NCBI RefSeq assembly: GCF_017569185.1
Contig: NZ_CP071869.1
Span: 1,540,001-1,604,000, forward strand
Direction: 5' to 3'
DNA: 64,000 bases
DNA from: Polaribacter cellanae
Lineage (GTDB): Bacteria > Bacteroidota > Bacteroidia > Flavobacteriales > Flavobacteriaceae
In this document: in pieces, positions 60,367 through 64,000 of the stretch
Numbering within the stretch: position 1 is the stretch's first letter
How the letters are laid out: every line of letters begins with the position of its first letter
Translations under genes and position numbers: made by a program
Notes under the pieces: model-generated
Told to the model about the DNA's origin: nothing
What the model saw: only the letters and a program-made list of their open reading frames with translations
Database searches by the model: none

Positions 60367-62121
60367 TTATTCTTGAATATTTAATTTTAAGCTTAATTCT
60401 TTCAATTGTTCTTCGTCGATAAAAGCAGGTGCATCTATCATAACATCTCTTCCAGAATTATTTTTTGGAAATGCAATAAAATCGCGGATGGTTTCTTGTC
60501 CGCCTAAAATGGCAACTAATCTATCCAAACCAAAAGCCAAACCTCCATGAGGTGGTGCTCCATATTCGAATGCGTCCATTAAGAAACCAAATTGTGCTTT
60601 TGCATCTTCTTCAGAAAAACCTAAATGCTTTAACATGGTTGCTTGCATTTGCTTATCGTGAATACGAATTGAACCTCCGCCAATTTCATTTCCGTTTAAA
60701 ACCAAATCGTATGCGTTTGCTTTTACTGCTCCAGGATTTGTTTCTAACAACTCCATTTGACCAGGTTTTGGTGAAGTAAATGGATGGTGCATGGCATGAT
60801 AATGCCCTGTTTCTTCATCTAATTCTAATAATGGAAAATCTATTACCCAAAGTGGCGCAAATACTTTTGGATCTCTCAATCCTAAACGTTCTGCCAACTC
60901 CATTCTTAAAGCAGATAATTGTGCTCTTACTTTATTGGTTTCTCCAGACAAAATACAGATTAAATCTCCAGGTTTTGCACCTGTAGCTTCTGCCCATTTT
61001 GCCAAGTCTTCTTGGTCATAAAATTTATCTACAGAAGATTTAAAAGTACCATCTTCGTTTACACGACAATAAATCATTCCTAAAGCACCTACTTGTGGTC
61101 TTTTAACCCATTTTATAATATTGTCAATTTCTTTTCTTGTGTATGAGTTTCCTCCTGGAACTGCAATTCCAACTACCAATTCAGCATTGTTAAAAACACC
61201 AAAATCTTTGTGTTGTGTAACTGAATTTAATTCAGCGAATTCCATTCCAAAACGGATGTCTGGTTTGTCATTTCCATACAAACGCATTGCATCATCATAC
61301 AACATTCTTGGAAATTTATCTACTTCAACTCCATTTACTTCTTTTAGTAAATGACGCGTTAATCCTTCGAAAATATTTAAAATATCTTCTTGTTCCACAA
61401 ACGCCATTTCACAGTCAATTTGTGTAAATTCAGGCTGTCTGTCTGCACGTAAATCTTCATCTCTAAAACATTTTACAATCTGAAAATATTTATCCATTCC
61501 ACCAACCATTAATAGTTGTTTGAAAGTTTGTGGAGATTGTGGTAAGGCATAAAACTGACCTTCATTCATTCTCGAAGGAACCACAAAATCTCTTGCACCT
61601 TCTGGTGTAGATTTTATTAAATAAGGCGTTTCAACTTCAATAAATTCTTGGTCAGACAAGTATTTACGAACTTCCATCGAAACTTTATGACGGAAAATTA
61701 AACTCTCTTTTACCGGATTTCTTCGAATATCCAAGTATCTGTATTTCATTCTTAGGTCATCTCCACCATCGGTTTTGTCTTCAATCGTAAAAGGCGGAGT
61801 TACAGATTCATTCAAAATTTCTAATTTAGAAACTAAAACTTCCACATTTCCAGTTGGCATTTTACTGTTTTTCGACTCACGTTCAATCACCCTTCCAGTA
61901 ACCTGAATTACAAACTCTCTTCCCAGAGATTTTGCTTTCTCCATCATTTCTTTTGGTGTGCGTTCTTCATCGAACATTAACTGTGTAACTCCATAACGAT
62001 CGCGTAAATCTACCCAAATCATAAAACCTTTATCGCGCGATTTTTGTACCCAACCAGCCAAGGTTACTTCTGTATTTATATGCGAATCTCTTAACTCGCC
62101 ACAAGAATGACTTTTATACAT
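60367..62121 (-). CDS. aspS: Aspartyl-tRNA synthetase
   Basis: 584 residues, class II synthetase. The N-terminal OB fold is [22 protein letters not shown]. Motif 2 is [23 protein letters not shown], and motif 3 is [20 protein letters not shown]. The GAD insertion domain is present (about 290-410), so this is the bacterial form. It charges tRNA-Asp with aspartate. Convincing full length for the family. Confidence 0.97.
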
Positions 62122-62313
62122 TTCTATGAATAATTTAAGTTGCGAAATTAATCATTTTCCATTAAATATGAATGTTTTGGGTGTTCATTTCTAAACAGAA
62201 ATACTACGCTTTTCGCACTCACTTTTTTTAAACAAAAAGAGTTTAAACATTAGCCTGTGCTTAGCGAATTCGAAGTACTTTAATCGGTAACGCAGAATCC
62301 GTCTAATTCTTCG

Positions 62314-62321
62314 TAAATTTG
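62314..62321 (+). promoter_or_regulatory. -7 box of the cupin gene
   Basis: TAAATTTG matches TAnnTTTG exactly, 5 nt before the ATG at 62327. The transcript should be nearly leaderless. Confidence 0.5.
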
Positions 62322-62326
62322 TCTTT

Positions 62327-62686
62327 ATGAGTGTAATTAATATTCAAGAGAAATTCAATTTATTTTCAGATTATTGGTCGCCAAAGAAAATAGGAGAATT
62401 AAACGAACAACAGATTTTATTAGCCAAAATAAAAGGAGAATTTGTTTTTCATAAGCACGACAATGAAGACGAGCTTTTTATGGTACAAAAAGGCGTTTTA
62501 GAAATCCATTTAAGAGATAAAATTATTACGATTAACGAAGGCGAGTTTTATATTGTTCCAAAAGGAGTGGAGCATAAACCAGTTGCCAAAGAAGAAGTTT
62601 TTATTTTGTTGTTTGAGCCACTTACTACAAAACACACTGGCGATATTGTTGCAAATATTACTGTGGAAGCATATGAATCTATTTAA
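62327..62686 (+). CDS. Cupin-domain protein
   Basis: 119 residues of a single cupin barrel. The metal motif has EFVFHKHDNEDELFMVQKG (His-x-His-x-x-x-x-Glu pattern) and GEFYIVPKGVEHKPVAKE (His). Small stand-alone cupins of this type occur widely, and the substrate is not known. It lies 106 bp upstream of the Fic gene. The first Fic operator begins 2 bp after its stop codon. Confidence 0.85.
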   Translation: MSVINIQEKFNLFSDYWSPKKIGELNEQQILLAKIKGEFVFHKHDNEDELFMVQKGVLEIHLRDKIITINEGEFYIVPKGVEHKPVAKEEVFILLFEPLTTKHTGDIVANITVEAYESI

Positions 62687-62688
62687 AA

Positions 62689-62795
62689 CATAATAAGAAA
62701 ATCAATTATTATGCTTTTTATATGAAATTCATAATAATAAAATATTTAATTATGATTTTTTATATATTTACATAATAACAAAAACTCTTATTATG
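62689..62795. promoter_or_regulatory. Three helically phased operators of the Fic gene
   Basis: The motif CATAATAA, then 9 nt, then TTATTATG occurs at 62689-62713 and 62771-62795 without mismatch, and at 62730-62754 with one mismatch (right half TAATTATG). Centres lie at 62701, 62742 and 62783, exactly 41 bp apart. The last copy ends on the ATG of the Fic gene. A weak -7 box TATATTTA (62763-62770) touches it, so binding there would block transcription. Confidence 0.75.
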
Positions 62796-63917
62796 ATAAA
62801 TTTTAAATCTGGATTATATCAAAATCAAGGATATTATAAAAGTTTTCAACCTACTCAAATTAATAGAGATTGGATGATTAACGACATGAAACTAATTCAG
62901 TTATTAAGTCTTGCAGATAGACAATTAGGAAGGTTAGATATGTATTCTGAATATGTAAATGTTGATTTATTTACACAGATGCATATTGCAAAAGAGGCCA
63001 CACAATCTTCTAAAATAGAAGGTACACAGACTAATATGGAAGAAGTCTTTCTAAAAAAAGAAGATGTTTCAAGTGAAAAAAGAGATGATTGGGAAGAAGT
63101 ACAAAATTATATTCAAGCAATGAACCATGCAGTTGGTTTGTTACATAAGCTTCCTTTTTCAAGTCGACTAATAAAACAAACTCATAAAATTTTATTACAA
63201 GGTGTAAGAGGTAATCACAAATTACCTGGAGAGTATAGAAGCAGTCAAAATTGGATTGGTGGAGCTTCTATAAATGATGCCGTTTTTATACCTCCTATTC
63301 ACAATACTGTAAACGATTTTATTTCTGACATTGAAAAATTTGCAAACGATTTAGAAAATCCTATGCCAGATTTATTAAAAATAGCTCTAATTCATTATCA
63401 ATTCGAAACTATCCACCCTTTTTTAGATGGAAATGGAAGAGTTGGAAGACTTTTAATTACTTTATATTTAGTAAACAAAGGAATTTTAAAACGGCCTATT
63501 TTATATTTATCAGATTTTTTTGAAAAACACAGAACTTTATATTATGATAACCTAATGAGAGTCAGAACCCATAATGATATCAATCAATGGTTTAAATTTT
63601 TTCTAACAGGAATTATAGAAACTTCCAAGAAAGGTGTAGATACTTTTAATTCAATTATGCATCTTTCAAAATCTACAGAAGAGAAAATTACTAAACTAGG
63701 GGCAAGAAGTTCCGATGCTCATAAAATAGTTGATTATCTATATAGCAATCCTGTTGTTGATGCCCAAAAAGTTGGAGAAATTATAGAGAAAAACCCACAA
63801 TCTGCATATCAACTAATAAACAAACTTGAAAACTTGAAAATCTTAAAAGAAATAACAGGTTCTCAAAGAAATCGTCTTTATACTTTTGATGATTATTTAG
63901 AAATTTTTAACGGCTAA
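62793..63917 (+). CDS. Fic-family AMP transferase with N-terminal inhibitory motif and C-terminal winged helix
   Basis: 374 residues. The Fic motif HPFLDGNGRVGR is at 208-219, with all key residues (His208, Asp212, Asn214, Arg219). The inhibitory motif SSKIEG (72-77, Glu76) sits in the N-terminal region, so this is a class II, self-inhibited Fic protein. Residues about 305-370 look like a winged helix-turn-helix (DAHKIVDYLYSNPVVDAQKVGEIIE, AYQLINKLENLKIL). It should transfer AMP to a hydroxyl on a target protein when relieved. The promoter carries three phased operators. The gene ends 5 bp before rsmI. Confidence 0.92.
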   Translation: MINFKSGLYQNQGYYKSFQPTQINRDWMINDMKLIQLLSLADRQLGRLDMYSEYVNVDLFTQMHIAKEATQSSKIEGTQTNMEEVFLKKEDVSSEKRDDWEEVQNYIQAMNHAVGLLHKLPFSSRLIKQTHKILLQGVRGNHKLPGEYRSSQNWIGGASINDAVFIPPIHNTVNDFISDIEKFANDLENPMPDLLKIALIHYQFETIHPFLDGNGRVGRLLITLYLVNKGILKRPILYLSDFFEKHRTLYYDNLMRVRTHNDINQWFKFFLTGIIETSKKGVDTFNSIMHLSKSTEEKITKLGARSSDAHKIVDYLYSNPVVDAQKVGEIIEKNPQSAYQLINKLENLKILKEITGSQRNRLYTFDDYLEIFNG

Positions 63918-63922
63918 TTAAA

Positions 63923-64000
63923 ATGAGCAAATTATATATAGTCCCAACACCAATTGGTAATTTAGAAGACATAACTTTTAGAGCGATTAGAATTCTAAAA
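63923..64000 (+). CDS. rsmI: 16S rRNA (cytidine-2'-O)-methyltransferase RsmI (partial, runs off the right edge)
   Basis: The first 26 codons read MSKLYIVPTPIGNLEDITFR and on to the edge, the typical N-terminus of RsmI (VPTPIGNLxDIT). The gene starts 5 bp after the Fic stop, so it is probably co-transcribed with it. RsmI methylates C1402 of 16S rRNA at the ribose. Confidence 0.93.
   Translation, partial: MSKLYIVPTPIGNLEDITFRAIRILK

Follow-up and report, generated by a model that had tools for sequence, protein, structure and literature searches.

Autoregulated type II toxin-antitoxin loci are shut by their own product, which acts on inverted repeats over the promoter. In the Fic family a case of this kind is CccR of Yersinia pseudotuberculosis, a class II Fic protein and T6SS effector with a C-terminal HTH; it binds to inverted repeats before that gene's own coding sequence, in the promoter, and thereby shuts off its own expression, for which the dimer is required (PMC9755527, in the parts of that article used here). 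The CccR operator is given there as one pair of 10-bp half-sites, AGATAATCAT-N26-ATGATAATCT, about 36 bp apart from left to right.

EcSofic is a dimeric class II Fic protein that is toxic when expressed and is followed by the gene of a 47-aa antitoxin, AS1; Sofic toxicity is reported to depend on contact between the C-terminal and the AMPylase domains (PMC12249575). In the portion of that article drawn on here the activation mechanism of Sofic upon phage infection is called elusive, and the terms HTH, helix-turn, winged and transcription are not mentioned. CbFic2 of Coxiella burnetii, a class II Fic protein with a C-terminal winged helix, binds DNA; that study used random DNA, reported stimulation of the enzyme by DNA and, in the sections used here, gives no operator for CbFic2 (PMC10628234). 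According to the same sections, published in 2023, SoFic had yet to be shown to bind DNA.

No array like the one described below was found before a Fic gene among the titles and abstract openings listed in searches of the open literature, subscription papers and preprints lying outside this scope. Here we present the analysis of a Fic locus of Polaribacter cellanae; in the best reading it encodes a Fic toxin, probably directed against phages, that represses itself through a multi-site operator of fixed pitch.

The Fic protein and its genomic setting

The window, i.e., the whole stretch of 64,000 nucleotides analysed here (NZ_CP071869.1, positions 1,540,001 to 1,604,000), carries at 62793..63917 on the forward strand the gene for a SoFic-type class II Fic adenylyltransferase of 374 aa, an assignment that draws on Pfam, PADLOC, the PDB, sequence motifs and a predicted model. 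The Pfam domains of the open reading frame are Fic_N and Fic, and its best PADLOC model is SoFic (residues 14-372, E 5.4e-118). The nearest solved chains in the PDB, where SoFic is represented by the entries 9tb0, 9tc4, 9tch and 9tcl, are named SoFic and match residues 59-365 including the C-terminal domain; the agreement with the SoFic family model and with the solved chains is full-length. The Fic motif, HPFx[DE]GN[GK]R, is present as HPFLDGNGR at 208-216, with H208, P209, F210, G213, N214, G215 and R216 invariant among 32 aligned relatives, and the inhibitory motif, [ST]-x3-E-[GN], is found at the N-terminus as S72-x3-E76-G77, all three residues being invariant in the 32 rows. The gene probably encodes an anti-phage toxin. 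A class I Fic toxin-antitoxin system of the VbhT/VbhA kind was considered and rejected: the inhibitory motif lies in the same chain, and the neighbours are cupin and rsmI.

The predicted model of the protein has a mean pLDDT of 82, with block values of 93-95 for residues 301-350. It places C-terminal helices at 303-318, 324-331 and 335-347 and a strand at 362-364, a predicted secondary structure which reads as a winged helix. The third helix, 335-347, is the predicted recognition helix, and residues 336 and 340 lie about one turn apart at its start.

Upstream of fic a cupin protein is encoded at 62327..62686 (forward strand), outside the system and at the edge of the apparent cassette, and the gene downstream is, from its sequence, presumably rsmI. 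Cupin and rsmI adjoin in the genus (cupin match in 30 of 40 genomes), and in nine of 12 loci, the own locus being included in the count, the gap between them measures 2-185 bases, too short for fic. In the own genome this gap spans 1236 bases, taken up by the array and fic alone; its edges are tight, 2 bases separating the cupin stop from the array and 5 bases fic from rsmI. Because of this difference in gap length, array and fic look like one single gained cassette. The cupin-rsmI junction (62687-63922 in the window; L191-L201 in the genus) looks like an insertion spot. At L198 a different ORF of 152 aa, which we take by eye to resemble an acetyltransferase, lies between cupin and rsmI, and at L191 rsmI was not seen in the stretch examined.

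The repeat array in the window

The inverted repeat CATAATAA-N9-TTATTATG occurs three times in front of fic, and a motif scan confirmed what the sequence-only reading had described, namely two exact copies and one with a single mismatch at a pitch of 41 bp. Repeat 1 (62689..62713; half-sites 62689-62696 and 62706-62713) is an exact match and starts 2 bases past the cupin stop, repeat 2 (62730..62754; half-sites CATAATAA at 62730-62737 and TAATTATG at 62747-62754) has one mismatch, and repeat 3 (62771..62795) is again exact. The right half-site of repeat 3 (62788-62795) contains the fic ATG at 62793-62795, with which the repeat ends, so the earlier placement of the last site on the start codon holds. 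The centres lie at 62701, 62742 and 62783, 41 bp at each step. The DNA between the half-sites has diverged, while the half-sites are kept.

When up to two mismatches are allowed, 0.22 sites are expected by chance in the 64-kb window, and three or more sites appeared in none of 100 shuffles of it. A three-dyad fit that was given no motif, run on 175 bases around the start, returned the same array with period 41 and the first half-site at 62689; its score of 59.9 compares with a maximum of 46.2 among 300 dinucleotide shuffles. The own genome is a single contig of 4.14 Mb; it has just one further site with at most one mismatch, at C1:2197428 within a long ORF, and a second cluster of sites was not found. 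Single sites with up to two mismatches are at chance level genome-wide (25 versus 27 for a reversed control pattern); in this genome the cluster alone is special, not the single sites. The three-repeat array before fic is real: chance, or a motif common in A/T-rich DNA, is ruled out by the shuffles, the genome scan, the three-dyad fit and the control segments of the related loci.

A second, partial SoFic match (E 2.8e-25) is present in the own genome at C1:2776851-2777540 (L203), and no copy of the window operator within two mismatches was found near it.

Recurrence in related loci

Related loci were taken from the best 80 of at least 570 encoding a relative, from whole genomes (14 of 249 at E 1e-40 and, in three sets at 1e-80, 13, 60 and 39 of 395; each count includes the own genome) with at most 30 loci per genome set, and from 24 viral contigs. 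The start was usable in 182 of the 185 sequences. Removal of 22 that were at least 92% identical to another one and of three that were short or contained N left 157.

When 92 upstream regions were autocorrelated, the signal was strongest at lag 41 (combined z 23.0, with 14.2 at lag 40 and 8.6 at lag 42). The coding and far-upstream controls gave -2.8 and -0.4 at lag 41, the coding control reaching 12.0 at another lag; four of the 92 regions (L087, L089, L090 and L097) had been read from the wrong strand, an error that should not produce a peak of this kind. When two dyads were fitted with no motif prior and with the period free between 25 and 60, 40-42 bp was chosen in 110 of the 157 loci. This fit exceeded the 99% shuffle level in 61 of them (52 at 40-42 bp, six at 50-52 bp), the window array lying outside these 61. 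With a family prior for register and free spacings (12-39 and 30-65), 131 of 157 loci scored above the 95% level set by 314 resampled sequences, 114 of the 131 with a period of 40-42 bp. The 26 loci below this level, 21 of them with less than 60% identity, include the window, which misses it because its half-site is out of the register of the prior; the support for the window itself comes from the motif scan and the three-dyad fit and not from the family tests. A period of 40-42 bp together with a spacing of 23-24 bp was found in 108 of 157 real regions versus two of 285 control segments from far upstream at these loci; the control segments are less A/T-rich (58% versus 72%), the composition-matched control being the resampled null.

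The sequence-only reading had looked to orthologous Fic genes for the same motif at the same pitch. The pitch recurs, in that arrays of 40-42 bp precede related Fic genes (114 of 131 significant loci, n = 157), whereas the motif itself is not conserved. Such arrays are also rare in other DNA, the second point which that reading had raised: seven of 285 far-upstream segments lay above the 95% level, and no other array was seen in the own genome. Inverted repeats in the promoter region of the own gene, as in a self-repressing Fic system, were found in the window and in the relatives.

At L010 (Tannerella forsythia) three perfect copies of one 41-bp unit lie just before the fic start, which suggests that arrays grow by tandem duplication of the whole period. 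Distant plasmid Fic loci (seven of 40 listed), ambiguous in the orientation of their half-sites, were left out of the tests above; the top-ranked spacing was nominally 41 bp in three of the seven, namely L205, L206 and L210, on plasmids of Phyllobacterium, Microvirga and Sinorhizobium, with other half-sites. A distant group with a period of 50-52 bp and mostly TGAAATAA as half-site is formed by L174, L175, L177-L181 and L187. Their contigs are classified as viral, so a Fic of this kind may also be present, together with its operator, in some phages or prophages.

Spacing and overlap with promoter-like boxes

For the relatives a nine-letter register is used, with CTTAAATAA as left half and TTATTTAAG as right half. 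Among the 131 significant loci the distance from left to right half is mostly 17 or 18 bp, and the distance from right to left half, i.e., between the operators as first read, is the least variable (23 bp in 90 of them, 24 bp in another 22). A left-to-right distance of 17 goes with period 40 and one of 18 with period 41 (two-by-two counts 30, 16, 1 and 53; Fisher p 8e-13). The window has spacings of 17 and 24 bp with eight-letter half-sites. Best left-to-right distances of 35 bp (L022) and 38 bp (L149) occur in two of 131 loci, L149 also fitting the 41-bp layout. In the 50-52 bp group, i.e., the eight viral-contig loci (38-41% identity) and L071, the distance is 28-29 bp, and 28 minus 17.5 bp is one helical turn. 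This lengthening of the period from 41 to 51 bp among remote relatives supports the earlier proposal that all sites lie on the same face of the DNA, and we infer that neighbouring dimers keep helical phase.

The outer half-sites fit the locus consensus worse than the inner ones, with 7.06 and 7.00 of 9 versus 7.71-8.03 in 35 three-dyad arrays, and 7.45 and 7.42 versus 7.79 and 7.73 in 67 two-dyad arrays. Since the spacing is most constant between the operators as first read, a dimer may sit there, and TTATTTAAG-N14-CTTAAATAA is probably bound as a rigid unit, likely by a protein dimer. In the window the proposed dimer units would be 62706..62737, from the right half of repeat 1 to the left half of repeat 2, and 62747..62778, between repeats 2 and 3 with the same least-variable spacing; one extra half-site lies on each side of these two pairs. 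The count of three sites is upheld, but the term 'three operators' is perhaps better replaced by six half-sites with a dimer on each between-operator pair. Alternatively, the dimers may sit on the operators as first read, with a rigid contact from dimer to dimer.

The Bacteroidetes -7 box is TAnnTTTG. It occurs in the upstream regions of 54 of 109 relatives, versus 15.2 expected from shuffled letters and seven on the other strand, and for 24 matches in these 109 loci the distance to the axis of the gene-proximal repeat is 2-5 bp. In the window a candidate -7 box, TATATTTA at 62763..62770 on the forward strand, is TAnnTTTG with the last letter different and touches the left half-site of repeat 3; this box is imperfect, and a -33 box was not recognisable in the window. 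Half-sites at the candidate promoter boxes would fit repression via a block of the polymerase; the transcription start that the sequence-only reading put under the third site is likewise a predicted one.

Co-variation of half-sites and recognition helix

The letters of the half-sites vary by lineage. Their co-variation with the protein was calculated for the 109 of 157 loci with at least two dyads, 48 being omitted; half-sites were called with a shared register prior and fixed spacing ranges, which should blunt differences rather than create them. Residue 336 ranks first among 333 variable columns (2.64 bits over shuffles, z 24) and residue 340 second (1.55 bits), the best column outside the helix being 292 (1.22). 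The same two residues head the ranking among the 74 loci with at least 58% identity (1.89 for 336 and 1.18 for 340; next 0.85).

Residue 336 goes with bases 3-4 of the half-site as follows: P with TA in 36 of 37 loci, V with TA in 17 of 19, A with AA in 13 of 13, S with CA in seven of seven, N with GA in seven of eight, and R with GC or AC in eight of ten. The corresponding half-sites are CTTAAATAA for the P and V members and CTAAAATAA for the A members. Loci with K are split (AA six, CC three, CA one), and Q, the residue of the window protein, is accompanied by three different combinations of bases 3-4 in four loci.

When whole-protein distance was corrected for, the best of 367 seven-column windows of the alignment was 334-340 (0.42; at most 0.28 elsewhere). 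In the 74-locus subset the windows starting at 334 (0.429) and 335 (0.398) lead, followed by that at 54 (0.333). A tree simulation based on residues 1-300 of the 74 loci gave at most 0.80 bits versus 1.38 observed, none of 1000 runs being as strong. From the distance-corrected windows and the simulation it follows that relatedness does not explain the co-variation. Independent pairs on strongly supported branches, too few for a sign test, went the same way about four times and the opposite way once; by residue, again in few cases, A versus P/V agreed in two of two and R versus C at base 4 in one of two.

Of 25 new loci 24 were usable (at most 53% identity). A significant array was present in 13 of the 24 and absent in 11, one of these 11 (L224) being 98% identical to a locus used before. 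Among the 13, which could be scored, the exact geometry was seen in eight, and the residue-336 rule held in 12, nine of these 12 via K. The co-variation of the half-sites with its own recognition helix makes it very probable that Fic is the reader of the array and its own repressor.

Proposed mechanism and alternatives

The features computed above, namely the array, its recurrence, the spacing rule, the overlap with promoter-like boxes in the relatives and the co-variation, form the ground for the following proposal, in which binding, repression, cooperativity, dimer state and purpose are what we infer. We hold it to be highly likely that the array is the autoregulatory operator of fic, read by the winged helix of Fic itself, with self-repression as the predicted outcome. 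The protein would form a dimer in which each chain ends in a winged helix, and its recognition helix, chiefly residues 336 and 340, would read the A/T-rich half-sites. Several dimers would be aligned on one face of the DNA at the 41-bp pitch, over promoter and start codon, and little protein would suffice to shut down fic, so that a self-poisoning AMPylating enzyme is kept scarce. The purpose may be to hold the toxin low until phage infection.

That Fic binds the array and activates the gene, or serves another purpose than repression, is improbable. An array for an activator could also have sites upstream of the promoter, and the letters are silent on the direction of the effect; however, the half-sites at the promoter-like boxes and the start codon occupy positions expected to block the polymerase, and CccR, the relative for which the effect was measured, is a repressor in the account used here (PMC9755527). 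Still less probable is that another regulator of the host binds the array, with fic as one of its targets. The array by itself does not name its binder, and DNA of random sequence was bound by CbFic2, a winged-helix relative, in the part of the study used here (PMC10628234). Against this, the half-site letters follow the recognition helix of Fic better than the rest of the protein, the own genome has no second cluster of sites, and array and gene appear to form one insert.

We give very little credence to an RNA structure, with the repeats as leader hairpins or terminators: each repeat could pair as RNA and repeat 3 overlaps the start codon, but co-variation with a DNA-reading helix and a change of pitch by a helical turn are unexpected for RNA, the candidate -7 box comes only after repeats 1 and 2, and no Rfam match at the gathering level was found in 61500-64000. 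A functionless, decaying 41-bp tandem repeat in A/T-rich DNA can practically be dismissed, for although duplication does make such copies, as the perfect units of Tannerella forsythia illustrate, the half-sites are kept while the intervening DNA diverges, many lineages have different half-sites in the same geometry, and the co-variation likewise speaks against decay.

Within the preferred reading of a self-repressing Fic, a speculative and rather doubtful extension is that the array doubles as antitoxin, operator-bound dimers being both repressing and disarmed. If the operator pulled the C-terminal domain off the AMPylase domain, the DNA-bound dimer would be disarmed; phage take-over of the host DNA, or incoming DNA capturing the protein, would then free armed dimers, and the gene would be a single-gene alarm with the host DNA as its safety catch. 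The sign of the DNA effect could also be the opposite, by analogy with the stimulation of CbFic2 by DNA described in the part of PMC10628234 used here.

The self-repression proposed here bears on how the level of SoFic-type (class II) Fic toxins is set and on how these toxins are triggered. With a widely shared operator, a measurable pitch and a rule from residue to base, binding, self-repression and a link between DNA occupancy and toxicity are directly testable. The loci also offer a family of natural pairs of winged helix and operator for studies of DNA recognition.

Comparison with known systems

The protein resembles the SoFic/Sofic anti-phage proteins in its best PADLOC model, its nearest solved chains and its class II arrangement; since only 5 bases separate fic from rsmI in the window, no AS1-like gene follows it. 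With CbFic2, as described in the sections of PMC10628234 used here, it shares class II and a C-terminal winged helix, which is predicted in the present case. Like CccR (PMC9755527, parts used here), it is a class II Fic protein with a C-terminal DNA-binding domain, again a predicted one, and with inverted repeats before its own gene. Through CccR an autorepressing Fic is already known; the operator geometry differs here. The spacing of about 36 bp was not found in the window, where the distances are 17 and 24 bp, and two of 131 relatives come near it, which might be a third step of one helical turn. Compared by description, CccR has one pair of half-sites, whereas the window has an array at 41-bp pitch. 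In type II toxin-antitoxin systems the antitoxin carries the DNA-binding part, whereas here the toxin and the predicted reader of the operator are one chain.
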